Shown: piece after piece, positions 11,887 through 25,379 of the stretch
How positions within the stretch are numbered: position 1 is the first letter of the stretch
How the letters are laid out: each line of letters starts with the position of its first letter
Translations under genes and position numbers: made by a program
Virus record (IMG/VR): IMGVR_UViG_3300042881_003088
Span: 1-30,036 of that record
Reading direction: 5' to 3' (one strand)
DNA length: 30,036 nt
DNA from: a virus
Notes under the pieces: generated by a model
What the model saw: only the letters and a program-made list of their open reading frames with translations
Told to the model about the DNA's origin: nothing
The model's database searches: none

Positions 11887-13133
11887 CAGCGGCTGATTTC
11901 CTCCCAGTCCATGGATGCGTGCACATTAGACGTTGCCGCACTGGCTGTAACAACAAGGCTTAATTCGTAAGGGGTGGAGGTGAGGCCATTGCGTTCCAGT
12001 TGGAATTTGAATAGGGCTTCTTTAAGGATGTCTACGGATGCTGTGCTTTGGTTGGTGGAGCTGAAGTAGCCCTGGGCCAGGATGCGGCCGCCGGTTGTGG
12101 CGGTGCCGGTGAGGTTGTATTCGACGCTGGATTCGCTACCGGCGCTTGTCCAAGTGCCGCCGGTAGTGGTGGCGTTAGCCATTACGCGCCAGTTGTAGTT
12201 GGCGTTGGCGCTGGCGCCCAGGATGGATAGAGCGGTGAGAATGACGATTGCGTCTAGTGCAGCTGCTTTAAGACGTAAAGAAATAACCGGGTAGTAAGTG
12301 CCGGCGACGGTAAGGGCGTGAGGAGCGGTGATGGCGGTGCCGATGGCTTGTTGGAGGCCGCGGAGTTCGTAACCGCCCTCAGAAAGTACAGTCGAGCAGA
12401 CCTGTTTGAGGGTGCTGGCGCTTGTTGTGGCGGCGGTGTTTGTTATTTCGTATCGGAGAGGAAGTGAGGCGGTGGTGATATAAGTTGAAGTAATGATGTT
12501 GGCGTGGTGGAAGGAATGGCAATGGATAAATTTGCCGTTAATAACGAAACCTAGGCGGACGGTGCCGAGTCCCAGCCATTCAATGTCCATCCAAAGGATT
12601 TGGGACTTTGTGGTGTCCAGTTCGAGGTTGGAGGGGCCGTCGCCGTTTAGGGGGTCGGTGTTCCAGTCGGATTGGGAGACGCGGGTTTCGACGAGGGAGC
12701 CGGTGGAGGAGCTGCGTTCGACGAAGGAGAGGGTGTTATTGGCAAGTTCTAGGTACATGCCGTTGGCAGCGCCGTAGTAGCCGACGCGCTGGCGGAGGCC
12801 GGTTTTGGCGGGGTTCAGTGTAAAAGTGGACATCACCAGCAGGGATTTGCCCGGCTGGTATGAACAGCATTTGGTGGTTTCGCGGATGACCTCGGAGCCA
12901 GAGCTGGTGGTTACGGCGAGGTTGACGAGGCCGGCGTTAACGTCGAACGTGGACGTTCCACCGGTGGCGGTGGAGGTGGCCCAGAGGCCGTTGTCGTGGT
13001 ATCGGTGGCTGGAATCGAAAAGAGTAAGTGGGTTAGATGTGCGTAGACGTCCAAAAGCATCTCCGACACCAACGGGTAGAGCCGTGGTTACAAAGGGGTT
13101 GGTGTAGGAGGAGGTCTGGACGAATAAGGACAT
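11886..13133 (-). CDS. Large beta-rich virion surface protein (head fibre or decoration candidate)
   Basis: 415 residues. N-terminal part GDAFGRLRTSNPLTLFDSSH then DVNAGLVNLAVTTSSGSEVI, TTKCCSYQPGKSLLVMSTFT and LRQRVGYYGAANGMYLEL, followed by TRVSQSDWNTDPLNGDGPSN and WMDIEWLGLGTVRLGFVING (about residues 170-200). I recall this signature (RLRvSNP.tlFDsk, YQPGKS.l, RRVGYfd..NG, DiEWLGvGrVR.GFvi.G) from many environmental phage proteins of unknown role, usually near terminase and portal genes. The C-terminal third is Ser/Thr/Ala-rich and repeats an all-beta style. It probably sits on the virion surface; attachment to head rather than tail is inferred from gene position. Confidence 0.65.
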   Translation of the reverse strand: MSLFVQTSSYTNPFVTTALPVGVGDAFGRLRTSNPLTLFDSSHRYHDNGLWATSTATGGTSTFDVNAGLVNLAVTTSSGSEVIRETTKCCSYQPGKSLLVMSTFTLNPAKTGLRQRVGYYGAANGMYLELANNTLSFVERSSSTGSLVETRVSQSDWNTDPLNGDGPSNLELDTTKSQILWMDIEWLGLGTVRLGFVINGKFIHCHSFHHANIITSTYITTASLPLRYEITNTAATTSASTLKQVCSTVLSEGGYELRGLQQAIGTAITAPHALTVAGTYYPVISLRLKAAALDAIVILTALSILGASANANYNWRVMANATTTGGTWTSAGSESSVEYNLTGTATTGGRILAQGYFSSTNQSTASVDILKEALFKFQLERNGLTSTPYELSLVVTASAATSNVHASMDWEEISR

Positions 13134-13136
13134 GGC

Positions 13137-13295
13137 CTATTTCTTGCCTTTTTTGGCGGTTTTGGCGGATGCTTTGAAGGCAGCGGCGGTTGGGGCACCT
13201 TTAGTGCCAGGCTTGCGCATTTTTTCGCCGCTGCCGGCGGCGATGCGCTTGCGTTTGGCCGCAATGTTGGCGTACAAACCGGATTTTTTAGCCAT
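13137..13295 (-). CDS. Very small basic conserved phage protein (GLYANIAAKRKRI type)
   Basis: 52 residues: SGLYANIAAKRKRIAAGSGE, then KMRKPGTKGAPTAAAFKASA and a Lys-rich end. I recall this motif (GLYANI..KR.RI..GSgEkMR.pG.kGaPt) as widespread in small phage proteins near terminase genes; function unknown. The high Lys/Arg content suggests binding to DNA or to an acidic protein. It begins by a TAATG overlap with the next upstream gene and ends three bases before the ATG of the 415-residue gene. Confidence 0.75.
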   Translation of the reverse strand: MAKKSGLYANIAAKRKRIAAGSGEKMRKPGTKGAPTAAAFKASAKTAKKGKK

Positions 13296-13393
13296 TACTT
13301 TTTCTTAGGTGCTTTTTTCTTGGTGCTCTTGGCCGGCATCGGCTTAGCTTTACCTTTTTTGGGCATCTTCATGTCGCCGTAATGTCCAGGCAT
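13295..13393 (-). CDS. Tiny Lys/Pro-rich protein (MPGHYG type)
   Basis: 32 residues, MPGHYGDMKMPKKGKAKPMP followed by AKSTKKKAPKKK. The in-frame ATG at 13393 is chosen over 13372 because MPGHYG is an opening I recall from small cyanophage proteins, and because it overlaps the large terminase end by 15 bases in keeping with the tight spacing here. Nearly half the residues are Lys. Together with the following 52-residue protein it makes a pair of tiny basic proteins directly after the large terminase gene. Function unknown. Confidence 0.6.
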   Translation of the reverse strand: MPGHYGDMKMPKKGKAKPMPAKSTKKKAPKKK

Positions 13394-13408
13394 AACCAGT
13401 CGTCGTAC

Positions 13409-14659
13409 TTACCACACACGATAGGAGGTCTTTCCCAGGTTCTCTGGTTTGGCGAGGTTGAAAGTTTGCAGGCAGAGGTAGCCCAGGGCGTCAAATGCGT
13501 GGTCTACGCCGAGATTTTTGTTGGGGAGGCCGGTTCCAGGGGCATAAGTCAACGTGCGGAGGGATTTGATTAGTTCTTTGCACTTGGGGTGGATGAAGAG
13601 GCGGCGCGTTCCAGAGGCATCGAGGAGGGCGGTGTTGACGCAGGTGATTTTGTCGCGGATTTTCCAGGGATTTCGGGGGCTGGAGACCGTGAAGCCGGAC
13701 TTTCGGAGGATGTTGTGGTCGGTGGCGCCAACGCCGCTGGTTTTGCGGGCGCCGCCGGTGGGGTCTGGGCAGGCGATGATGCGGCGCTCCACGCCGTAGC
13801 GGGTCTGAATTTCTTCGCATAGATCCCAGGTGGTGGCGCCACCGGTCATGATGATTTCGTCGAAAACCCAGAGCACGTCGCCTTTTTTGACCGCGCATAC
13901 GGCGGACATGGGGTCCACGTTGAAGTCGACGCCCAGCAGCAAAGGCAGCACCGGCAGGTCTTGCACCACGCTGTCGATGTTTTCGTCGCTAAATGAGACG
14001 GCGACGAGACCGCTGAGATTCTCGAAGCTGGCCTCGAATTCTTGGCGGAAGGTGCGGGCGTCAAGCTGGGCGCGGGCGGCTTCAATTTCTTCCGGTGGGA
14101 CGTTATCGCCGTCGATCGTGGTGAATTGCCACCGGTGCCAGTCCGGGTCGTCCTGGTCGCAATAGCACCAGAGGTCGTAGAACCAGCTGGCCGTGCCGTC
14201 GGGCGTGGAAATGAACAATGCCCAGCCTTGTTTGTCGGCGAGGGCGGGGCGGATGACCTCGAACCAGACGTCGCTGGACATGAACGCGGCTTCGTCGAGC
14301 ACCACGCCAGCCAGACTGCGGCCTCGTAGGGCCATGGCGTTTTCAGTGCCCTTCAGTTCGATGGTGGAGCCGTTCACCAGCTCGATTTTCAGGTCGGTCT
14401 CGTTTTTGGATTTGATCCAGGCTTTGGGGACTAGTTTTTTTAGTACCTTCCAGGCGATGTCTTTCGCCATGCGGTAGGTGGGGGCGGCGTAGAAAAAGGT
14501 TTCGCCGGGGCGTTCGATTGCCCCACGCAAGAGTTCGATGCAGGAGAGGTAGCTCTTGCCGAAGCGACGGCCGGCTACCAAGACACGGAAGCGTTTACGG
14601 CTGGAAAACACTTGCCCCTGGGCGTAGCGGAGCGAGAGGGTTCCAGCCGTGTCGGTCAC
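13409..14659 (-). CDS. terL: Terminase large subunit
   Basis: 416 residues from GTG 14659. The ATPase part has Walker A AGRRFGKS (residues 29-36) and Walker B AGVVLDEAAF (about 115-123). The nuclease part has LLGVDFNVDPMSAVCAV (about 239-255) and a late Asp in NLGVDHAFDALGYL (about 380), as expected for the RNase H-like fold. The protein pumps DNA through the portal and cuts it at the end of packaging. Length is normal. The upstream gap holds no clear Shine-Dalgarno but has a GGTACGGGTACC inverted repeat at 14667-14679. Confidence 0.95.
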   Translation of the reverse strand: MTDTAGTLSLRYAQGQVFSSRKRFRVLVAGRRFGKSYLSCIELLRGAIERPGETFFYAAPTYRMAKDIAWKVLKKLVPKAWIKSKNETDLKIELVNGSTIELKGTENAMALRGRSLAGVVLDEAAFMSSDVWFEVIRPALADKQGWALFISTPDGTASWFYDLWCYCDQDDPDWHRWQFTTIDGDNVPPEEIEAARAQLDARTFRQEFEASFENLSGLVAVSFSDENIDSVVQDLPVLPLLLGVDFNVDPMSAVCAVKKGDVLWVFDEIIMTGGATTWDLCEEIQTRYGVERRIIACPDPTGGARKTSGVGATDHNILRKSGFTVSSPRNPWKIRDKITCVNTALLDASGTRRLFIHPKCKELIKSLRTLTYAPGTGLPNKNLGVDHAFDALGYLCLQTFNLAKPENLGKTSYRVW

Positions 14660-14713
14660 TTTTTCGGGTACGGGTACCTTCTAGGGTATTACAGGAATTG
14701 AACCCCTGCCCCC

Positions 14714-14923
14714 CTAAGGGTTGCGGTAGCCGGTGCAATAGCCGTTGTTGCGGTACGTTCCAACCGGGCAGGTGTTGCCGGAGGAGTTGATGGACTGGTT
14801 ATGCGAGTTGATGGATTTGGTGGGGATGCAGTAGCCGGTCTGGCCGTAGTAGCCGACGGGACACATTGAATTGACTTGCGTGAGGGGGATGACTTGGGCG
14901 AGTACCAGGGGCAGGAAAAACAT
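14714..14923 (-). CDS. Small secreted Cys-repeat protein
   Basis: 69 residues. MFFLPLVLAQVIPLTQVNS looks like a signal peptide (hydrophobic core, possible cleavage after LAQ or near VNS). The mature part has two copies of a Cys-pair unit, CPVGYYGQTGYC and CPVGTYRNNGYC, separated by a Ser/Asn-rich linker (SINSHNQSINSSGN). Each unit could form one disulfide. I recall CP.GYY...GYC units in short secreted cyanobacterial proteins, so a host origin is plausible (inference). It sits between the large terminase and a membrane-protein gene. A role in the envelope (lysis or superinfection) is only a guess. Confidence 0.6.
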   Translation of the reverse strand: MFFLPLVLAQVIPLTQVNSMCPVGYYGQTGYCIPTKSINSHNQSINSSGNTCPVGTYRNNGYCTGYRNP

Positions 14924-14947
14924 GGGGGATGTAGTACAGAAGAGGTT

Positions 14948-14983
14948 AGTTTAGCACAGTAGAAGGAAATGCGAATGTATCAG
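14948..14983 (-). promoter_or_regulatory. Minus-strand promoter candidate(s) for the secreted protein and terminase genes
   Basis: Two overlapping options. An extended -10 TGATACATT (14983-14975), matching the TGATAC core used at 17.0 and 28.3 kb. Or TTCGCA (14975-14970), 16 bases, TAAACT (14953-14948). Both lie 25-60 bases before ATG 14923 in a locally AT-rich gap. Confidence 0.4.
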
Positions 14984-15013
14984 TAGGTTCCCTGGGACCC
15001 ACTCCCACCTCGC

Positions 15014-15058
15014 CAGAACTCGAACCCTGCCCCCCGTCAAGGGGGAGGGCCGGTTCTG
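15014..15058. repeat. Large intergenic stem-loop
   Basis: CAGAAC (15014-15019) pairs with GTTCTG (15053-15058), and CCCT..CCCCC (15025-15035) pairs with GGGGGAGGG (15041-15049), loop GTCAA. There is no T run, so it is not a standard terminator. The rest of the gap from 14984 to 15084 shows nothing else clear. Confidence 0.55.
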
Positions 15059-15084
15059 TCACAAGCTGTAACAGCCGCAGCGGC

Positions 15085-15240
15085 TCAGCGGCCCAGCACC
15101 CGCAAGCGGCACTCCTCGGGGTGGGCGCCCGTAGCCTCGCAGCGTGCCAGCAGCTCAGATGCTGGGGGATGCGTCAGGCCCCACGCAAAGGTGGCGACCA
15201 TCAAAGGTACGAAAACGATGGGGCGGATTAGGTGGGCCAT
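15085..15240 (-). CDS. Small membrane or lipoprotein-like protein with Cys pair
   Basis: 51 residues from ATG 15240: MAHLIRPIVFVPLMVATFAW is a signal anchor or signal peptide, followed by HPPASELLARCEATGAHPEE and CRLRVLGR, with two Cys placed to form a disulfide. The frame could start at 15267 (60 residues), but a good -10 element (TATACT, 15273-15268) covers that start, so 15240 is preferred. I recall small phage proteins ending C...TG..P.ECRL.VLGR; no function is known to me. With the secreted protein at 14714 it forms a pair of envelope-targeted proteins beside the terminase. Confidence 0.6.
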   Translation of the reverse strand: MAHLIRPIVFVPLMVATFAWGLTHPPASELLARCEATGAHPEECRLRVLGR

Positions 15241-15267
15241 GGGTCGGCGTCCGTTGTTGTCTTGCAC

Positions 15268-15273
15268 AGTATA
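15268..15273 (-). promoter_or_regulatory. -10 element of a minus-strand promoter
   Basis: Minus-strand TATACT in the context TCTTTATACTGTGC, 28 bases before ATG 15240. No good -35 is seen at 16-18 bases, so it may depend on an activator or an upstream T-rich context. Confidence 0.4.
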
Positions 15274-15328
15274 AAGACAGCAGCAGCCCGCGCCAGGGCA
15301 GTGGCTGCCGGTTCTGCAGCTGTCTACT

Positions 15329-15363
15329 GTCTCAACCTAAGGAGCTGGGTCTCAGCCTAAGAC
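15329..15363. repeat. Tandem 13-mer GTCTCARCCTAAG at the small terminase stop
   Basis: GTCTCAACCTAAG (15329-15341) and GTCTCAGCCTAAG (15349-15361, extended to GTCTCAGCCTAAGAC), repeat period 20 bases. The second copy includes the stop codon of the small terminase gene. A near-identical but fully palindromic copy is at 18180-18194. Confidence 0.7.
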
Positions 15364-15827
15364 TCTGCGTTGCGCTTGTCGTCGATCTCCACGCGCAGCA
15401 CGGGGGCCGCGGCGGCTTGCTGTTCTGGTGCAGCTTCGCCGATGACAGCGCCCATGTCTTTGAGCAGCATCGCCACAGTCTGCAGCTGGCCTTTGGCCAT
15501 CGCTTTACGGCAGGCCGAGAGCCTAAGCGCCTGAATTTGGTTCAGGAGTTCGGATCTGGTGGCGATTTGCTCGGTCTTTAGCAGTTCGGTCGCGCGGCTG
15601 TAGTCTTCGTCCGCTGTTCTTTGAGACACATTGAAGCGATCTGCCAGCTTCTGGGTGATCTGCCGACGTGTGCCACCGTTCAGAATCTCCGCGTAGCACC
15701 AGTTGGCCCGTTCTTCCACGCGGACGCTGGAGCCCTTGCCGCCACGCCACCGCTTGCTCTCGTCGTTGGCGACGGTTCGCGGTTCGGTTACTTCCTGGCC
15801 GTCACAATCCGCCACGGTTACAGTCAC
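15357..15827 (-). CDS. terS: Terminase small subunit
   Basis: 156 residues from GTG 15827. A helix-turn-helix lies at about residues 45-80 (ILNGGTRRQITQKLADRFNV, then SQRTADEDYSRATELLKTEQ), followed by a helical part (RSELLNQIQALRLSACRKAM, LQTVAMLLKDMGAVIGEAAP) suited to ring formation and an Ala/Gln-rich linker before the C-terminal segment LRVEIDDKR that would contact the large subunit. It recognises the packaging site. Two other genes separate it from the large terminase, which is less usual than direct adjacency but common enough in phages with inserted small genes. Confidence 0.8.
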   Translation of the reverse strand: MTVTVADCDGQEVTEPRTVANDESKRWRGGKGSSVRVEERANWCYAEILNGGTRRQITQKLADRFNVSQRTADEDYSRATELLKTEQIATRSELLNQIQALRLSACRKAMAKGQLQTVAMLLKDMGAVIGEAAPEQQAAAAPVLRVEIDDKRNAES

Positions 15828-15943
15828 AAACTATCTGCGCCAATGATAAGCGGCCCTGCTATCACGTTTCGCAAGCGAGCGAAGCGAGCGCCGCGAAAAA
15901 GACCCAGCACAGTGGCCGGGCCGGTGATCGGTGGGGGTGCCAG

Positions 15944-16177
15944 TCAATAGGAGGGCAGCACGAACGCAACGGTGCAGGATCCTACGGGCCGCAGCTCGAA
16001 ACCCTCGCCACAATCAAACCGCCGGCACCGCTGGCCAGTCAGCCCCAGGGCTGCCTTGGCTGCGGTGATGATCCGCCGGTCGGATGCACTAGTGGGTAGC
16101 TCGAAGCTCTCGCGGCGCACCCAGCTGTAATTGGCCTGGCCGCCGAAGGTATCGGTCAACTCTACATTCCACAGCAC
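15944..16177 (-). CDS. Conserved phage protein of unknown function (TDTFGGQANYSWVRR type)
   Basis: 77 residues from GTG 16177: LWNVELTDTFGGQANYSWVR, then RESFELPTSASDRRIITAAK, a short helix AALGLTGQRC and the end FDCGEGFELRPVGSCTVAFVLPS (in part). I recall the opening W.VE.TDTFGGeANY.WV.R from small phage proteins encoded among early or accessory genes, without known function. Three Cys occur in the C-terminal half. The gap of 116 bases to the small terminase holds no recognised site apart from a GCGAGCGAAGCGAGCG run (15870-15886). Confidence 0.68.
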   Translation of the reverse strand: MLWNVELTDTFGGQANYSWVRRESFELPTSASDRRIITAAKAALGLTGQRCRRFDCGEGFELRPVGSCTVAFVLPSY

Positions 16178-16180
16178 CGC

Positions 16181-16381
16181 TCAGACCTCCTCGAATTCGG
16201 CTTTATCGCTGAGCAAGCCGGGATCGTGGGCCTGATTCCAGCTGCGGCAGAGGTCGCGGGCCTCCTCCTCGCTCCAGGCGTAGGCGATGTGATGGCGGGG
16301 GCCTACGCCAGGTTCGCGGCCGTCGGGCCAGCCGGGGTTGGCTTGCCACCAGGTACGGTGAAACACTCGAAACTTTGTCAT
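16181..16381 (-). CDS. Conserved phage protein of unknown function (FHRTWWQANPGWPDG type)
   Basis: 66 residues from ATG 16381. MTKFRVFHRTWWQANPGWPD is followed by GVGPRHHIAYAWSEEEARDL and CRSWNQAHDPGLLSDKAEFE. The first part is a short beta strand with a WW pair, the rest an acidic helix with an EEAr..C..WN.nhdPG.lS.KaEfE motif that I recall from many small phage proteins. The frame runs further upstream to 16810, but that part overlaps two other good genes and is not used. A minus-strand TACTAT (16412-16407) could be its -10. Confidence 0.7.
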   Translation of the reverse strand: MTKFRVFHRTWWQANPGWPDGREPGVGPRHHIAYAWSEEEARDLCRSWNQAHDPGLLSDKAEFEEV

Positions 16382-16439
16382 GGGTGAGCCTTGGTAGGGT
16401 TTGCTCTTGTGCAATAGTAGAACCGCTAGCGGCCCGGCG

Positions 16440-16757
16440 TCAAGTGCCAAGCCACAGAAAATCATGGGCGCCCGGATCCTCGCGGCAGTCACAGGCCCAG
16501 ATCCAGAGCACGCGGGCGCGGTTGGCGTTGTGATCCGCCAGGTCTGCAGCATCCCAGGCGCCAAACTCCCGCAGATGTTGGCGGAATAGCCACGGGGGGC
16601 CGTCAAACTGCAGGCGCTCCAGCCAGAAAGCCACCGTATCATCAGCAGGGCCGGGGCCGGAGCAGTCCGCCACACATTCGGCGGGAAGCTGGCGGCAGGA
16701 TTCGCGGCCGCCGCAATGGTTGAGATCGAACCAGGGGGTCCAGGGTTGAGTCTGCAT
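16440..16757 (-). CDS. Conserved phage protein of unknown function, Cys/Trp-rich
   Basis: 105 residues: MQTQPWTPWFDLNHCGGRES, CRQLPAECVADCSGPGPADD, then TVAFWLERLQFDGPPWLFRQ and a helical WDAADLADHNANRARVLWIW. The Cys cluster (C15, C21, C28, C32) could bind zinc or form disulfides. The middle and end resemble small phage proteins I have seen with the same D.v..W...L.fdgp....r..L.efGaWd...L.dh..N..RvLWi motif. Function unknown. It ends three bases before the next gene start upstream, consistent with one transcript. Confidence 0.68.
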   Translation of the reverse strand: MQTQPWTPWFDLNHCGGRESCRQLPAECVADCSGPGPADDTVAFWLERLQFDGPPWLFRQHLREFGAWDAADLADHNANRARVLWIWACDCREDPGAHDFLWLGT

Positions 16758-16760
16758 GGT

Positions 16761-17009
16761 TCAGCCCTCGCGGTAGGGTGCCAGCCCCAGCCAGCAGCGG
16801 ACTGCATCAATCCGGCGGTAAGTTTTGCCGGCCCCGTAACGGTTCCAGTGGGCAGCTTGTGCGGTGCCGTGGCTGCTGAACCGGGGGGCCGCCCACTGCC
16901 ACACTGCCAGGGCTTGCTGGCGCTCCAGCCCTTGAAGCTGCGTGGTGATCTGGTCCCAGCTGAGACCTAGGAACCGTTCGGGCCGTAGGCGCGGGGTTTG
17001 GTATGCCAT
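16761..17009 (-). CDS. Conserved phage protein of unknown function, first gene of the leftward transcript
   Basis: 82 residues from ATG 17009: MAYQTPRLRPERFLGLSWDQ, then GLERQQALAVWQWAAPRFSS and WNRYGAGKTYRRIDAVRCWL. Helical, Trp- and Arg-rich. The ATG is preferred over the longer frame to 17063 because the promoter candidate (17036-17063) lies upstream of it. It is the first gene after the divergent control region, so it would be made first in leftward transcription. No family with a known role recognised. Confidence 0.65.
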   Translation of the reverse strand: MAYQTPRLRPERFLGLSWDQITTQLQGLERQQALAVWQWAAPRFSSHGTAQAAHWNRYGAGKTYRRIDAVRCWLGLAPYREG

Positions 17010-17035
17010 GGCAGGGCTTGCCGAAGTGCCCCCGT

Positions 17036-17063
17036 ACTGTATCACACCTGCCAGCCTTGGCAA
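17036..17063 (-). promoter_or_regulatory. Leftward promoter of the divergent control region
   Basis: Minus strand TTGCCA (17063-17058), 16 bases, TACAGT (17041-17036) with TG one base before the -10 (extended -10 TGATACAGT). It would start transcription about 20 bases before ATG 17009. Confidence 0.6.
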
Positions 17064-17085
17064 ACCGCCGGGCTGCTGATACTGT
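17057..17085 (+). promoter_or_regulatory. Rightward promoter of the divergent control region
   Basis: TTGGCA (17057-17062), 17 bases, TACTGT (17080-17085), again with an extended -10 TGATACTGT. The -35 overlaps the -35 of the leftward promoter. A good ribosome site (TAGGAGG, 17110-17116) precedes ATG 17125. Confidence 0.62.
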
Positions 17086-17124
17086 ATTAAGCGAAGCCCT
17101 CAACCAAACCTAGGAGGCTCCCCA

Positions 17125-17337
17125 ATGAACCGACCCCTCGGCCCGCTCCAGCGAAATTGGCTTAACTTCCTCCGCCGCAATCCAGGCCCGCACTTTGTGG
17201 CGATGCCCCAGCGCGATCAGCGGATCGCCGATTCCCTGCAGGCCCGCGGCCTGATCACGATGGCCCCAGCTGCCATCACCGACCCTAAGGGTCTCCCGGT
17301 CTACACCCTCGAAGCGGTGGAGGCGCCCCAGCAATGA
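17125..17337 (+). CDS. Small winged-helix-like protein of unknown function
   Basis: 70 residues: LGPLQRNWLNFLRRNPGPHF, then QRDQRIADSLQARGLITMAP and PVYTLEAVEAP. The layout helix, turn, helix (IADSLQARGLI), then a two-strand wing (GLPVYTLE) resembles a reduced winged-helix domain, so DNA binding is possible. It follows the rightward promoter and a strong AGGAGG ribosome site, so it is probably the first and a well-translated rightward product. The position fits an early regulator, but that is inference. It overlaps the next ATG by four bases. Confidence 0.68.
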   Translation: MNRPLGPLQRNWLNFLRRNPGPHFVAMPQRDQRIADSLQARGLITMAPAAITDPKGLPVYTLEAVEAPQQ

Positions 17338-17765
17338 GCGGCGGAGACTGGAACACCACCCGGGAGCGTAAACAGCTGGCCCTAGATGCCCGAGAGCTTG
17401 AGCGCGAACAGCTGCGTCTCGAAAAGCGCCATCTGAAAGACCTGCGGTGGGCGGTGGAGCGATCCACCATCACCGCCAGTGACTGGGCCGACCTTTTAAC
17501 GCTCCAGGCTGCCCACGGTAAGGAAGGCCCCCTTCAGGTATGGCGGGAACTGGTGCCGTTTTGGTGCGCCAGTCAAAAAATAAATGGCGGCGCAGTGTGC
17601 CCCAAAGCACTGTTCCCGGAAGGCGAGTCGGGTATCCTTGAAAATTATTCGCAAAAAACTGCGCGCACAAAACCGACGAGCCGAAAGGCTCCAGGGGCAG
17701 CGCGTAAAAAACGCACCGATGCAGGAAAACCCCGCCAGCCATACAAAAAGCGCACCAGTGCCTGA
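17334..17765 (+). CDS. Basic helical protein of unknown function
   Basis: 143 residues: TRERKQLALDARELEREQLR and LEKRHLKDLRWAVERSTITA form a coiled coil (residues about 8-45), followed by SDWADLLTLQAAHGKEGPLQ. The last 45 residues are very basic and low in complexity (TARTKPTSRKAPGAARKKRT). The start overlaps the previous stop (ATGA). The basic tail region overlaps the next frame, so one of the two reading frames there is under weaker constraint. Function unknown; nucleic acid binding is likely from charge only. Confidence 0.6.
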   Translation: MSGGDWNTTRERKQLALDARELEREQLRLEKRHLKDLRWAVERSTITASDWADLLTLQAAHGKEGPLQVWRELVPFWCASQKINGGAVCPKALFPEGESGILENYSQKTARTKPTSRKAPGAARKKRTDAGKPRQPYKKRTSA

Positions 17766-18174
17766 AGCCTGGCTGCTGTTTACCCAAAACCCGGGGCTGC
17801 TGTCGTTTCAGCAGTTCCGGGAATCAAAGCGCCATAAAACCGAGGCTTACGTCTACGCGTGGCTCGGTTCTGATGGTTTGCCTGTTTACGTTGGCAGCGG
17901 GATCAAAAGCCGGGCGATAGCTCGCACACGCTCCAGGCTTAACCGAGTTATCCCTGAACCCCACTGCATCGCTGTTTTGCCGTGCGCGTCAGTGGCCCAC
18001 GCCAGGGCAGCGGAAGCGGCACTGATCCAGTGCCTTCCTGTTGAATGGCTCCCGCTCCAGTCCTATGAAAGGGCCCTTTTACGGCCCGGGCGGGTTAGGC
18101 GCTCAAAACCACGGAGCCACCGGCAAAACACACGGTCCGACGCCGGTGTAGCCAAAAAACGTTCCAGGCTATGA
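17719..18174 (+). CDS. GIY-YIG nuclease-like protein
   Basis: 151 residues from ATG 17719 (the frame is open from 17584, but that would overlap the previous gene by 182 bases). The core reads EAYVYAWLGSDGLPVYVGSG (about residues 42-61), a GIY-YIG-type pair YVY...YVG, followed by Arg at about 65-72 (SRAIARTRSRL) and an Ala-rich helix with Glu (ARAAEAALIQCL, Glu about 99) where the metal-binding Glu is expected. The C-terminus is basic. Free-standing GIY-YIG enzymes in phages are often homing endonucleases or DNA repair-type nucleases. No adjoining intron was seen. Start codon uncertain. Confidence 0.65.
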   Translation: MQENPASHTKSAPVPEAWLLFTQNPGLLSFQQFRESKRHKTEAYVYAWLGSDGLPVYVGSGIKSRAIARTRSRLNRVIPEPHCIAVLPCASVAHARAAEAALIQCLPVEWLPLQSYERALLRPGRVRRSKPRSHRQNTRSDAGVAKKRSRL

Positions 18175-18179
18175 ATGGC

Positions 18180-18194
18180 GTCTCAGCCTGAGAC
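18180..18194. repeat. Perfect 15-bp palindrome GTCTCAG-C-CTGAGAC
   Basis: Lies between convergent genes and includes the stop codon of the nuclease gene at 18183. It matches the repeats at 15329-15363 beside the small terminase stop. A protein dimer site or an mRNA-end hairpin are both possible. Confidence 0.7.
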
Positions 18195-19025
18195 TTGAAT
18201 GGGATTCTGGAGAGCTGCGAAATACTGCTCTACCCGTGCGAGGAACGAGCACTCTGCTTGCTCCAGCTCAGCCTGGGTCATGTAGTGAATGTTTGGATTG
18301 CCACAGCGGCGTGCTAGCACGATAGCGGCCCCGGTCGGTTGGAGGCCGGTGAGATGCTTGAGTCCCAGGCTGTAGGCGCCGCACTGGTCGATGTATGAAT
18401 GGCCGGGCGGGAGGCGCTCCAGGCCGTCGTCGTCCTTTTTGGTTTTGCGGCCCACGCTGGTTTTCCAGTCCGCTAGTACCAGCTCGTTATTCTTCATGCC
18501 GATGAGGGCGTCGCAGGTTCCAGCAAAGCCGGCGGGGTGGTGGATGCTGAATTCGCTGGCGAAAATTTCGGTGACGTTTTCGGCGATCCAGTCGGAGAGG
18601 CTGCGGGCGTAGCCGGAGGCGCTCCAGCCAACGCGGGGGACATTGGGGCGGACCCTTTTCAGGGCCCACTGCGTGATTGGCGAGGGAATCCGGGCTAGTC
18701 CCTGATCGTCCCAGCGGATGGCGTTGCGCTTGTTTGCAGTGGAGCGTGCCAGCTGCTGAGACGTTTTCAATAGATATTCCGCCTGACTGTGGGCCATGTT
18801 GCCTCGGGTGGCGGCAACATTGCGCTGGCAGCTGGCCTCGACGGGTCCCAAGCGGGCTTCCCAGCGTTCCAGCCCGGTTTTGTCGCTTGTTTCCTTCAGG
18901 ATGTGTGTAACACTATGGTATACATTACCTTTGATGTCCCTGTAGACCCGGAAGGGGCCGCTGTTATCTTGCTCCAGCCTCCACTTACGCAGTCCTGCCA
19001 GCGTGTCTTGGGTGTTGGAGGCCAT
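18183..19025 (-). CDS. PD-(D/E)XK family nuclease (RecB/Cas4-like)
   Basis: 280 residues from ATG 19025 (GGGAAAG upstream; a TTG at 19043 is the longer option). The nuclease core is GFAGTCDALIG (about residues 165-175) then ELVLADWKTS (about 180-188), giving the D...(D)xK pattern, and a following QCGAYSLGLKHLTGLQPTGA helix as in RecB-like nucleases. The N-terminal YHSVTHILKETSDKTGLERW and GNMAHSQAEYLL (His) also match phage exonucleases of this class. It follows an SSB-like gene, so a role in recombination or DNA end processing is likely. No Cys cluster for an iron-sulfur centre is evident. Confidence 0.82.
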   Translation of the reverse strand: MASNTQDTLAGLRKWRLEQDNSGPFRVYRDIKGNVYHSVTHILKETSDKTGLERWEARLGPVEASCQRNVAATRGNMAHSQAEYLLKTSQQLARSTANKRNAIRWDDQGLARIPSPITQWALKRVRPNVPRVGWSASGYARSLSDWIAENVTEIFASEFSIHHPAGFAGTCDALIGMKNNELVLADWKTSVGRKTKKDDDGLERLPPGHSYIDQCGAYSLGLKHLTGLQPTGAAIVLARRCGNPNIHYMTQAELEQAECSFLARVEQYFAALQNPIQVSG

Positions 19026-19058
19026 GAAGTTATTCTTTCCCAATTTGATAATACCAGT

Positions 19059-19084
19059 AAAAAGCCCCCTGGGTTAGAGGGGGC
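19059..19084 (-). terminator. Rho-independent terminator after the SSB-like gene
   Basis: Minus strand 7-bp stem GCCCCCT/AGGGGGC, loop CTAACCC, then TTTTT. It lies between the SSB-like and nuclease genes and so would lower nuclease expression. Same loop as the hairpin at 3938-3963. Confidence 0.85.
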
Positions 19085-19114
19085 GGTGCTACTTAATCGT
19101 TTTTAAGTTGTGGA

Positions 19115-19696
19115 TCAGGCTGCCTTAAAAGGATTGCCACCACTGAGAAGGCGGCTGATGTCGAAGCCTTCGGCCTTGGCTTCGAGCCAGGCGGCATCGA
19201 CGTGCTCTTGGCTGCCCTTTTTGCGGGGCACCGGGCGGACGGTGTACTCGGTGAGCAGGCCGCTGCCCTTCTTGCTGATCGTGAAGTCCCACTCCAGCAG
19301 GTTTTCGTAGTCCTCCATTTGGGAGATCTGGTCGATTTCCTTGAGGATGGACTTTTGGGTGATCTGCAGGACCTGGACTTTGCCGGACTCGTAGTTGTAG
19401 ACCGGGCAGGCGATGGCGAACTTCACGTCGGCGGTGCCAGGGCCGCCGCGGCCTTCGCGGGGCTCGAACTCGCCCATCTCAGTCGTCACGTCCTCATGGG
19501 TGGGCTCGTAGTCGAAGCGGAAGGGCTTGGATGCGCCGTTGGCTTGGCCCCAGCACTCGTAGAACTCCAGGGGTTCGTCGGTCAGCAGCGCGAAGCGGAC
19601 AGAGCCGCCGTCGGGGAGCTTGCTGAGGCTGAGGTAGCCGCCGCCGGTGCTGTTGGACGTAACAGCAGCAGAGGCTTGCTTGGAAAGGAAAGGCAT
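19115..19696 (-). CDS. Single-stranded DNA-binding protein, gp32-like
   Basis: 193 residues from ATG 19696. The start GGGYLSLSKLPDGGSVRFAL and LTDEPLEFYECW match the opening of phage gp32-like ssDNA-binding proteins (yLkl.dG..vrFrll.e....y..w). The middle CPVYNYESGKVQVLQITQKS and EWDFTISKKGSGLLTEYTV fits an OB-type beta barrel in which bound DNA is contacted by aromatic residues. It would coat single strands for the primase-helicase and polymerase. The longer frame to 19825 is not used; it lacks protein character. It pairs with the nuclease gene downstream, separated by a terminator. Confidence 0.72.
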   Translation of the reverse strand: MPFLSKQASAAVTSNSTGGGYLSLSKLPDGGSVRFALLTDEPLEFYECWGQANGASKPFRFDYEPTHEDVTTEMGEFEPREGRGGPGTADVKFAIACPVYNYESGKVQVLQITQKSILKEIDQISQMEDYENLLEWDFTISKKGSGLLTEYTVRPVPRKKGSQEHVDAAWLEAKAEGFDISRLLSGGNPFKAA

Positions 19697-19776
19697 TGGT
19701 GTTTCCGGTGTTTTGGTGGTCGCCCGAGGGCAACGTCTATGACAGTAACACGGGATTGACGGTACGGCTAGCCTAG

Positions 19777-19810
19777 TAAAACGCCCCAGCCGCGGAAGGC
19801 GGCCAGGGCG
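19777..19810 (-). terminator. Terminator-like hairpin on the minus strand in the primase leader
   Basis: Two 5-bp GC stems (CGCCC/GGGCG and GCCGC/GCGGC) with a 2x2 internal loop, followed on the minus strand by TTTTA. On the plus strand it lies in the leader of the primase-helicase mRNA, before the Shine-Dalgarno (AGGAG 19829-19833). Either block of antisense transcription or mRNA control is possible. Confidence 0.4.
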
Positions 19811-19842
19811 CGTGTAACACAACACTGTAGGAGTCTAACAAA

Positions 19843-22257
19843 GTGTCTCGTAAGACGCAAGAACTGCTGGATTTTGTGCGCCAGCTGCCTATTGGGCTGG
19901 CCTATGCACCGATTTACGCCAAGAAGTACGCGATCCAGTCCGGGAAAATCTCGAAGGGCAAGACACCGCTAGAGCGCAGTCACCATCAGGTGATGGCACC
20001 GTCGGATGTAGCGCTTCAGATCGAGCGCAAGCCGGATGTGTTCCAAGCGGTCGGTGTGTTCACCGGCGGTCGCAGCATGGGACTCGTGATTCTCGACGTG
20101 GATCGCAACCTTTCCCGGCTGCTGAAGAAGTGGGGCGAGACGCTGGAGGGGGCGCCGAAGGTCACCAGCACCAAGGCCAACGCGGCGAAGTATCTGTTTC
20201 GCGTCCCAGAGGCCCTGTGGGGCGATGTGAAGGGCTTTGGGCTGTCGGATACCGGCGCGGGGTATGAGGTCCTCTGGGGCCGTCAGGGCGTCATCTACGG
20301 GGCTTATCCGGGCTCCAGTGATGGGAAGGCACCGGAGGGCTATTACGGCTTTGAAGGCGACCTAGAGGCGATTCCTGACGCCCCTGAGTGGCTGTTGGCG
20401 GAAATGCGCGATCACGCCGGTAAAGAGATTCAAGACGGCGGCTTCATCAAGAACCGCCGGGCGTTGGATTTTTCGGATCGAGATCCAGCTGAGGTGGCTG
20501 AGATCATTCAGTCGGCGCTGAAGGTGATTCCCGGTCAAGGCAGCGGCAGCCGCGACCACTGGGTAAAGGTGGGGATGGCGATCCACAGCGAGTTGCCGAC
20601 TGACCTAGGGCTGACGCTGTGGTCGGCGTGGTCTGCGGAAGATCCCGAATTTTCACAGGAATGGTCTGAAGGCAATCCCTGTGAGGACGTGTGGAAGTCC
20701 TTTCGGAAAGGGCCAGTCAGCCTTGGGACGCTGTTCTGGATGGCGGATCAGCAGCTGCCTGCTCGCATGTGGCTTTCCGAGGATCTGCGGAAGGTTGTTG
20801 AGAAGGTTGAGGCCGACAACATCATCAGGATTCGGCAGATCCAGATCGGCTTCCCAGAACTGATCAAACGGGCGAAAGAGATCCAGCAGATTCAAAACCC
20901 CGCGGAAGCTGCTCACGCCATGAACGCGCTGGCGTTAGAAGGCGGTTATCGGGACGCTGGGGCGCTGGAGCGGCTGCTGATTGCCCAGATGCAGTTCGAG
21001 CAGCAAGATGACGAGATGGCCATGGACAGCCTGCTGGACAAGGATCTGCGGTTTGAGTACCTGATTCCTGATCTGCTGCCGTGCCCTGGGACCGTGATGA
21101 TTCACGGCGCTGGTGGTGATGGCAAGTCCATGTCGGCCTGGACCATCGCCAAGCACGTTGCACGCGGGATTCCGTTCTCGGTGCGGGGTGATCTTGTGCC
21201 AGTTGAGCCGGGCTCGGTGCTGATCCTTAATGGCGATCAGTCCGAGGTGCAGGTCCAGCAGCAACTGCGGGATCTGGAGTTCAGGAAGTCCGATCCGGTG
21301 ACGGTGGTGATGGGGTGGGACCTGAACTGGTACTACCGCTTCGTCAAGCTGATCGAGAAGCACCGGCCCAAGCTGGTCATCATCGACTCGATCACCGGCT
21401 GCTCCAGGGGTTCGGCGTTCGATGAAAACAAGAAGGAGTTTGCGAGCCCGATCTACTGGCTGGCCAACAACAATGGGCGGCTTTTCCCGGCCTGCACCAT
21501 CCTGCTGATTCACCACGCCAACAAGACCGGCGGGTTCCGGGGTTCCACGGCCATCAGGGACGCTGTGGACGAGGTGTGGGGCCTGCGGCGGCCTGATAAG
21601 AAACAGGTGGAGCAGACCGGCTACAACGCCCGCCTCATCACCGTGGAGAAGTCCAGGGCTGGGCGCGACGGCAGCAAGTTGCTGATGAAGCTGGAGAGCG
21701 ACCTGACCTTCTCCCTGGCGGACTACATGGAAGTCGACACCGAGAGCGCCGGGCCAGCTTCCATCGTGGATCGGGTGCTCCAGCGCGTTAGGGCGGCGTA
21801 TCCGCGGTCTGTAAGCCGCTCTGACCTGGCTGCTGATTCCCTGTGTGGTGGAAGCGTCGCCGGGATCCGCAAGGCGGTCCAGCGGTTGGTCTCCAGGGGG
21901 TTGATTGAGGTGGCTGAAGAACGTCCCAGTGAGGGGGGTGGTTCTCCTACTGCTTTTTACCGTGCAATTACCTCGCGTGAAAAGCCTATAAATATGTGTC
22001 CCACTGGGGAAGAACCCAGTCAGGGACTGGAAAGTACAGTGGGACAGCCCTCCGACGTGTCCCACTGCTGTCCCACTGCTGGGGATGAGGTGGATTCACA
22101 GTGGGACAACCCCCAACCGTGTCCCACTGCTAATCCCAGTGATACCAAGGGATCTGCCCCAGTGGGACAGGTTTTGGAGGTATCCCCAAAGGGAGAGGAG
22201 CGTTCTGAGGCTGAGCTGGCCCACCTGATGGAGGAAGCCGCACGGCTCTGGGACTGA
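19843..22257 (+). CDS. Primase-helicase: prim-pol, PriCT and RecA-like ATPase domains
   Basis: 804 residues from GTG 19843 with AGGAG upstream. Residues about 1-190 are an archaeo-eukaryotic primase-like domain (LDVD at about 84-87; later GYEVLWGRQGVIYGAYPGSS). About 205-300 is a PriCT-type domain (HWVKVGMAIHSELP, EWSEGNPCEDVWKSF, GTLFWMA). About 410-620 is a RecA-like ATPase: Walker A GAGGDGKS (421-428), Walker B KLVIIDSITG, then LLIHHANKTGGFRGSTAIRD. About 635-705 is a winged helix (RSVSRSDLAADSLCGGSVAG). The last 100 residues are a Cys/Pro/Thr-rich tail whose DNA contains the 9-mer cluster at 21998-22168. It makes primers and unwinds DNA at the fork. The usual motif II His of the primase is not apparent. 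Confidence 0.88.
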   Translation: MSRKTQELLDFVRQLPIGLAYAPIYAKKYAIQSGKISKGKTPLERSHHQVMAPSDVALQIERKPDVFQAVGVFTGGRSMGLVILDVDRNLSRLLKKWGETLEGAPKVTSTKANAAKYLFRVPEALWGDVKGFGLSDTGAGYEVLWGRQGVIYGAYPGSSDGKAPEGYYGFEGDLEAIPDAPEWLLAEMRDHAGKEIQDGGFIKNRRALDFSDRDPAEVAEIIQSALKVIPGQGSGSRDHWVKVGMAIHSELPTDLGLTLWSAWSAEDPEFSQEWSEGNPCEDVWKSFRKGPVSLGTLFWMADQQLPARMWLSEDLRKVVEKVEADNIIRIRQIQIGFPELIKRAKEIQQIQNPAEAAHAMNALALEGGYRDAGALERLLIAQMQFEQQDDEMAMDSLLDKDLRFEYLIPDLLPCPGTVMIHGAGGDGKSMSAWTIAKHVARGIPFSVRGDLVPVEPGSVLILNGDQSEVQVQQQLRDLEFRKSDPVTVVMGWDLNWYYRFVKLIEKHRPKLVIIDSITGCSRGSAFDENKKEFASPIYWLANNNGRLFPACTILLIHHANKTGGFRGSTAIRDAVDEVWGLRRPDKKQVEQTGYNARLITVEKSRAGRDGSKLLMKLESDLTFSLADYMEVDTESAGPASIVDRVLQRVRAAYPRSVSRSDLAADSLCGGSVAGIRKAVQRLVSRGLIEVAEERPSEGGGSPTAFYRAITSREKPINMCPTGEEPSQGLESTVGQPSDVSHCCPTAGDEVDSQWDNPQPCPTANPSDTKGSAPVGQVLEVSPKGEERSEAELAHLMEEAARLWD
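21998..22168. repeat. Seven copies of 9-mer GTCCCACTG/CAGTGGGAC (origin or control-site candidate)
   Basis: Plus-oriented copies start at 21998, 22059, 22070 and 22121; inverted copies at 22037, 22099 and 22160. Start-to-start spacings are 39, 22, 11, 29, 22 and 39. Copies fall in different reading frames of the primase-helicase (CPT, SHC, VGQ, QWD), so the DNA rather than the protein appears to be kept. Confidence 0.85.
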
Positions 22258-24010: not shown

Positions 24011-24394
24011 ATGCACATTCTTTCTGACGAACAGTTCCAGCAGATCACCACTGCCCTGGAGCACGCCTTCGTGGCCATCAACGCCTGTCAGCACGTCGAA
24101 CTGGACGTGACCAAGCCGGCAATCGCACCAGCAGCCAAGGCTGTACGTACAACCGCCGTACAAACTCCGAAGTCTCAAAGTAAGACTCGTGTGTCGTGCC
24201 GCAAGACGCGGGCGGCGTTGACGGAGAAGAAGGTGCTGGAAATTAAGCGCCAGCTGCAGGCTGGTGGCAAGTCGGTCGCCAAGATCGCTAAGGAGTTTGG
24301 CGTCCACAGCACCACGATCAACTGCATCAAATGGAACAAGACGTGGAAACACGTGACGCTCCAGCAGGATCAGCCCACCACGGTGGTGATCTGA
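24011..24394 (+). CDS. HTH DNA-binding protein
   Basis: 127 residues. Residues 1-30 are a helix (MHILSDEQFQQITTALEHAF), residues 35-65 a Lys/Thr/Ala linker, and about 70-112 a resolvase-type helix-turn-helix: ALTEKKVLEIKRQLQAGGKS then VAKIAKEFGVHSTTINCIKW. The pattern i..l..G.s...iA..fgvh..tI..I......w is found in phage regulators and in the DNA-binding ends of HNH enzymes. No nuclease motif is present, so a regulator or accessory factor is likely. A sequence GTCTCAAAGTAAGAC (24172-24186) related to the 18180 palindrome lies within the gene. Confidence 0.7.
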   Translation: MHILSDEQFQQITTALEHAFVAINACQHVELDVTKPAIAPAAKAVRTTAVQTPKSQSKTRVSCRKTRAALTEKKVLEIKRQLQAGGKSVAKIAKEFGVHSTTINCIKWNKTWKHVTLQQDQPTTVVI

Positions 24395-24908: not shown

Positions 24909-25168
24909 GCGATTTTGAGTTCCAGGTCAGCGACGCGGTGCATCATCCCAGCCACTACACCGCCGGGAAGATAGAAGTCATTGACATCTTGGAGGATTGG
25001 GTCCAGCACGCGCCCGACGCTGTGGTTGGCTCGCTCCAGTGGCAATGCCTGAAGTACCTCAGCCGGATGTGGTTGAAGAAGGATCCGCTGGAGGATGCCG
25101 AAAAATGTCGGTGGTATTTGAACCGGCTGATTAACACGTTGGCGACCGAGCCTTATCGGAATGAGTGA
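24905..25168 (+). CDS. DUF3310 protein (phage nucleotide kinase-like)
   Basis: 87 residues from ATG 24905, overlapping the dcd stop. AVHHPSHYTAGKIEVIDILE, then GSLQWQCLKYLSRMWLKKDP and EDAEKCRWYLNRLIN match DUF3310 (HY..g.iEvid......g....KYl.R...K....eDl.K..wYl.rl). These are often annotated as nucleotide kinases, but that activity is not proven for the family. Coupling to dcd supports some role in nucleotide metabolism or its control. Confidence 0.85.
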   Translation: MSDFEFQVSDAVHHPSHYTAGKIEVIDILEDWVQHAPDAVVGSLQWQCLKYLSRMWLKKDPLEDAEKCRWYLNRLINTLATEPYRNE

Positions 25169-25379
25169 GCCGAAGAGACCAGCGACGAAGACGTCGTTTC
25201 GGGAGGGGTCGATTCCGGGGACGGCGGTGTTGACGCCGCAGAACGCGCTGGATTTGAGGCATCTTTATGCCTCTGGCACTTCGATTTCGGAGTTGGCCAA
25301 GGTGTACGGGATTTCATACCAGCACGCTTGGTGCATTGTGAAAAACAGGAAGTGGCGTAATGCGATGCGCCAGGTGTGA
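25161..25379 (+). CDS. Small HTH protein
   Basis: 72 residues from ATG 25161, overlapping the DUF3310 gene by eight bases. LTPQNALDLRHLYASGTSIS and ELAKVYGISYQHAWCIVKNR form a clear helix-turn-helix (about residues 24-63), with a basic N-terminus. The core (G.s..elA..ygis...a..Iv....W) is the kind found in small phage regulators and NUMOD-like modules of homing enzymes. No catalytic domain. It overlaps the next gene by 20 bases. Confidence 0.7.
   Translation: MSEPKRPATKTSFREGSIPGTAVLTPQNALDLRHLYASGTSISELAKVYGISYQHAWCIVKNRKWRNAMRQV

Follow-up and report, generated by a model that had tools for sequence, protein, structure and literature searches.

In a 30,036-base virus contig, analysed here at its full length and called the window, two promoter-like sequences point away from each other and overlap at their -35 hexamers. 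What such a pair controls is the question that the locus raises. The earlier note on this DNA had proposed a simple switch, in which polymerases exclude one another at the shared -35 and transcription passes between leftward packaging and structural genes and rightward early genes. Our analysis points instead, with a probability of roughly two in three, to a divergent hub of host sigma70-type promoters that would serve two short, exchangeable accessory operons rather than an early/late switch.

Head and tail genes (terminase, portal, scaffold, capsid and tape measure) run leftward in the window, as do an exonuclease gene and an SSB gene at 18183-19825; primase, dCTP deaminase and DNA polymerase (polA) run rightward from 19843. 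A strong terminator-like hairpin lies between the SSB and exonuclease genes on the leftward strand (19064-19084), followed by the promoter-like sequence TGGTATTAT at 19056-19048. Two small rightward proteins (24011-24394 and 25161-25379), with weak helix-turn-helix matches below Pfam cut-offs, are possible regulators, and a leftward reading frame at 29513-29950 matches PF13529, a C39-like cysteine peptidase domain, with a score that clears the Pfam cut-off. No tRNA or Rfam element was found in the window.

Geometry of the promoter pair

The region 17010-17124 is exactly the interval that separates the leftward ATG (17009) from the rightward one (17125); the features within and around it are collected in Table 1. 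Read directly from the letters, the spacers measure 17 nt rightward and 16 nt leftward, and the two -10 boxes lie 38 bp apart. Every letter that the earlier note gave for its two promoters, TTGGCA-N17-TACTGT and TTGCCA-N16-TACAGT, is correct, and the overlap of the -35s and the TGA before both -10s are borne out in the same way. Each strand thereby carries the sequence elements of a sigma70-type extended -10 promoter (TGn, a -10 and a -35 at 16-18 nt), from which we infer RNA starts near 17092 (rightward) and 17029 (leftward), about 63 bp apart.

Table 1 Features of the promoter region and its flanking units (window coordinates)
Feature	Position	Strand	Remark
Predicted intrinsic terminator of the leftward unit, before terL	15901-15922	-	About 1.1 kb from the module
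Probable second leftward gene, 105 aa	16440-16757	-	Tentative start, set at the point where this sequence abuts the promoter in certain relatives (e.g. L037)
First leftward gene, 82 aa, no family match	16761-17009	-	Exchanged in relatives
Leftward leader hairpin GGCA-AGCCC-TGCC	17010-17022	-	Touches the ATG
Leftward extended -10, TGATACAGT	17036-17044	-	TGA 17044-17042; hexamer TACAGT 17041-17036
Inverted repeat TGCCA-N4-TGGCA, possible operator	17049-17062		Central; overlaps the -35s
Overlapping -35s, TTGGCAA near-palindrome	17057-17063		Read directly; over 24 representatives, both -35s exceed what shuffled spacers give
Rightward -35, TTGGCA	17057-17062	+	Five bases (17058-17062) common to both -35s
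Leftward -35, TTGCCA	17063-17058	-	
Rightward extended -10, TGATACTGT	17077-17085	+	TGA 17077-17079; hexamer TACTGT 17080-17085
AGGAGG ribosome-binding site of the 70-aa gene	17112-17117	+	Read directly
First rightward gene (P70), 70 aa, incomplete winged-helix-like fold	17125-17337	+	
Second rightward gene, 143 aa, no family match	17334-17765	+	138 tblastn matches among fetched loci
Exonuclease gene converging on the rightward unit	18183-19043	-	

A generic promoter scan of 12000-22000 returned 5 sites against 2.4 expected; it listed the leftward site (9/12), and the rightward site (8/12) fell below its threshold. When the rule was tightened to TGnTAnnnT with a -35 match of 5/6 or better and a spacer of 16-18, the two promoters were the only sites in the 30-kb window, and dinucleotide shuffles of the window gave an overlapping pair in 0/2000 cases and two or more single sites in 79/2000; because this rule was fixed after the site had been seen, conservation in relatives is the stronger evidence.

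A conserved block between exchanged genes

A profile of the block, searched against the window and the fetched loci (208 sequences in all, partly overlapping), gave 147 matches, and 98 sequences held one at E<1e-3. Among 114 distinct terminase-to-exonuclease intervals the module was present in 53 at E<=1e-3 and in 79 at E<=1, leaving 35 from which it was absent even at the latter threshold. From 92 distinct module regions we dropped 32 without a strict right-side TGnTAnnnT and reduced the other 60 to 31 representatives. The scored set comprises the 24 of these with a gap of 36-41, equivalent to 22 sites, two being read from both strands. Here 37-41 bp separate the two -10s, and both -35s persist in diverged spellings: their mean matches to TTGACA were 3.71 and 3.92, against 2.2 in shuffled spacers (0/5000), in a set of modules related by descent, for which shuffle statistics overstate independence. 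The left-side extended -10 is frequent in relatives, not universal.

The shared centre takes several forms over 57 modules: TTGGCAA (16), TTYCGCAAG (14), CTGSCAAG (11), GGCAACCCC (6) and TTGCAA (5), with none in the remaining 5. In the TTGCAA form exactly the same six bases serve both strands. The GGCAACCCC alleles keep their -10s and have no good -35, so a shared -35 is not essential in all modules; if functional, this group must lean on its extended -10s. Together the alleles form a natural series in which the sharing of one -35 by two polymerases could be tested. We discarded TACTGTAT as a direct-repeat operator (17035-17042 and 17080-17087), its left copy becoming TACAGTA, TAGTGTA or TAATGTA in relatives. 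A separate class of blocks (L068, L180, L190 and L193) has -10s only 27 bp apart, and in three loci (L068, L084 and L121) another promoter block, whose leader is similar, lies about 300 bp before terL.

The genes beside this block are exchanged. Sorting the first open reading frames gave 14 classes on the left and 13 on the right (one being 'none'), in 30 combinations over the 57 modules; these counts rest on a mechanical start choice, some frames are probably wrong, and the 57 include two sites read on both strands. Phages with left genes of different classes carry the window's 50-nt core unchanged, and among those that share it sequence identity begins at the left start codon. This exact core occurs in 18 contigs, one copy each, all already sampled. 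None of ten flank proteins passed the Pfam cut-off for any family; in PHROGs, two of them matched phrog_3906 (unknown) and one matched phrog_18452 (DNA ligase). The structure predicted for one left cassette (pLDDT 59) was of too low quality to be used. A rightward frame adjoining the exchanged genes (17731-18174) had no Pfam match; by eye, its protein resembles a GIY-YIG nuclease.

The leaders, too, recur. On the left, the hairpin has four pairs and a five-base loop, usually NACCC, with no evident Shine-Dalgarno sequence, and in relatives GGCA-NACCC-TGCC becomes GGGA-AACCC-TCCC. The four pairs form in 92% of the cells counted, and one pair changes from C-G to G-C in 7 of 29 leaders; these 29, of equal length, were chosen by hand from 76 distinct leaders, and the count leans towards structure. 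The 9-mer GGCANACCC, with at most one mismatch, is found in 41/52 left leaders and 26/52 right leaders, compared with ~3% of shuffled right leaders; the window's own right leader matches it at only 6/9.

Reach of the two units and choice between readings

Leftward of the module, an intrinsic terminator is predicted before the terminase gene in 61/68 distinct segments, against 45/680 shuffles and 18/68 on the opposite strand; these terminators lie 0.6-1.8 kb from the module, and their stems differ in sequence among phages. Rightward, two or three small genes end at the end of the leftward exonuclease gene, about 1.2 kb from the module. Given the predicted terminator before terL on one side and the convergent exonuclease on the other, both units look short, and neither looks like the packaging operon or the main replication operon. 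Promoter-like TGnTAnnnT sites also occur upstream of the small pre-terminase gene, at 14948-14982.

This layout bears directly on the proposed switch between packaging/structural and early transcription. The promoters do overlap and structural genes do lie leftward, but the window's terminator (15922-15901), like those of the relatives, is predicted to precede terL, and the leftward unit probably does not run into the packaging genes. Nor does the rightward unit look like the early one: it covers about 1 kb and meets the exonuclease gene head-on, and the exonuclease, SSB, primase and polA genes sit in other units. Overlap by itself does not imply a switch either. In E. coli, basal activity at all five bidirectional promoters tested was too low to set polymerases in competition, which arose only on activation (PMC12825309). 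Whether alternation matters would thus depend on promoter strength, and a true switch needs a regulator, such as pLS20 has (PMC4207663). We consider the timing switch very unlikely.

Direction might nonetheless be chosen by a phage or host repressor or activator bound to the central inverted repeat, as in lysogeny or plasmid switches. The overlapping divergent promoters of pLS20 are described as being under such control (PMC4207663), and over the 24 representatives the arms of the spacer inverted repeats average 4.9, against 3.9 in shuffles (0/1000). However, the sequence of the repeat varies from allele to allele, and the palindrome follows in part from two overlapping -35s. A PHROGs scan of 20 open reading frames in the window, itself a fragment of a genome, revealed no divergent repressor or integrase of a lambda-like switch. 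The regulator nominated in the earlier note, the 70-residue product of the first rightward gene, lost ground as well. It had been called winged-helix-like, and its AlphaFold model, a confident one (pLDDT 89.8), runs helix-strand-helix-strand-strand, with two helices and three strands instead of a three-helix core with a wing; the standard winged helix-turn-helix order has one helix more. In the PDB it finds only weak matches, with E values of 0.05 at best, and its best viral match is an unnamed S-CAM7 protein (E 6.7e-4, 30%). P70 type A accompanies the TTGGCAA, TTYCGCAAG and GGCAACCCC alleles 5, 9 and 2 times and type B 4, 2 and 4 times; since both types occur with the same three alleles, the protein does not track the DNA, which speaks against specific recognition of the centre and lowers the case for P70 as a general regulator. 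Operator control of direction is, on this evidence, unlikely, if less so than the timing switch. Just as improbable as the latter is the idea that only one direction is real and the other arises from the symmetry of the -10 and -35 elements. The -10 core TACTGTA does come close to symmetry by itself, and promoter symmetry commonly yields reverse transcripts (PMC10268837), but genes start close by in both directions, both -35s are kept above shuffles and the -10s of the two sides vary separately between alleles.

In the reading that we favour, the hub for two accessory operons, each side would use its own -10 and one -35 would be common to both. Because all elements are of housekeeping type, the host holoenzyme should bind either way. 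The overlapping -35s would admit one polymerase at a time and, as two holoenzymes presumably cannot share one -35, initiation would have to alternate; on this point the geometry agrees with the earlier remark that polymerases could not occupy both promoters at once. Polymerases probably exclude each other here, and the two outputs would be coupled by turn-taking, with no two-state switch. The leftward operon would run to its predicted terminator and the rightward one for about 1 kb to the convergent exonuclease gene. With genes exchanged at or near their start codons beside a promoter block that is kept, the block may act as a docking point at which a newly acquired gene would receive a ready promoter and leader.

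Known systems and the phage group

The literature that we searched on divergent pairs with a shared -35, phage switches and conserved phage promoters, a coverage with few subscription papers, gave no description of the module. Promoter-early stem-loops (PeSLs) of T4-like phages (Arbiol 2010 and Comeau 2014, via PMC4503421 and PMC3950731) likewise combine a conserved promoter block with a nearby hairpin, and lie between phage genes that are exchanged. Unlike PeSLs as described there, the module is divergent with a shared -35, has its exact core once per contig, belongs to a phage that is not T4-like and contains no internal stem-loop terminator, its hairpin sitting in the leader at the ATG. Lacking an internal terminator, being divergent and having one exact core per contig, it was not filed as a PeSL.

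Bacterial bidirectional promoters resemble it in that symmetry allows either orientation and binding in one excludes the other (PMC12825309, PMC10268837). Such promoters share a -10 and start 7-25 bp apart, whereas the module shares a -35 and has -10s 38 bp apart and predicted starts about 63 bp apart; with a separate -10 on each side, it falls outside the published definition of a bidirectional promoter (PMC10268837). The Pc/Pr pair of pLS20 also consists of overlapping divergent promoters in a mobile element, of sigmaA type; unlike the module, it pairs a strong promoter with a weak one and involves the regulator RcoLS20 and DNA looping (PMC4207663). Start-associated sequences of Cluster K mycobacteriophages are similarly conserved motifs beside the start codons of a subset of genes, but they contain a Shine-Dalgarno core and occur in 11-19 copies per genome, whereas the module's leftward leader is a hairpin with no evident Shine-Dalgarno sequence and is tied to a promoter (PMC3203893). 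The early promoter of anti-defence genes in archaeal viruses is likewise a conserved regulatory sequence with variable small cargo, and it has been used to find anti-defence genes (PMC11065993). That system is experimentally supported; here a single left gene, that of L188, has a match to anti-restriction PHROGs, and a weak one (E 0.0044).

Contigs of related phages extend to 40-47 kb. Relatives of terL in the genome collection amount to 12 loci in all. Terminase identity reaches 80% with a Prochlorococcus single-cell contig and 83% with an uncultured cyanobacterium; further terminase relatives lie in bins labelled with other phyla (one at 88%), which may hold stray phage. A picocyanobacterium is the likely, not proven, host. 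Cultured phages are more distant, with terL identities of 42% to S-2L and ~44-45% to Vibrio phages; among phage records, 16000-18200 had no DNA match and the exonuclease no match. In S-2L and the 12 genome-contig loci the module was not convincingly matched, the best E being 0.07 and the stretches short.

A broader and tentative proposal, which we regard as possible though doubtful, is that in a large, mostly uncultured phage group, probably on picocyanobacteria, the promoter with its shared -35 and matching leaders forms a standing landing site that captures and expresses exchangeable accessory genes, perhaps for anti-defence. Recombination would take place in the leader by the start codon, and the shared -35 would limit total output whatever is inserted. 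If so, the 50-bp signature would point to the sites at which these phages take up new accessory genes, and could be used to look for host-takeover and anti-defence genes in picocyanobacterial viruses. Among the left genes, an acid-rich class of 203-294 aa (e.g. L006 and L044) matches phrog_3906 and recurs beside the promoter.
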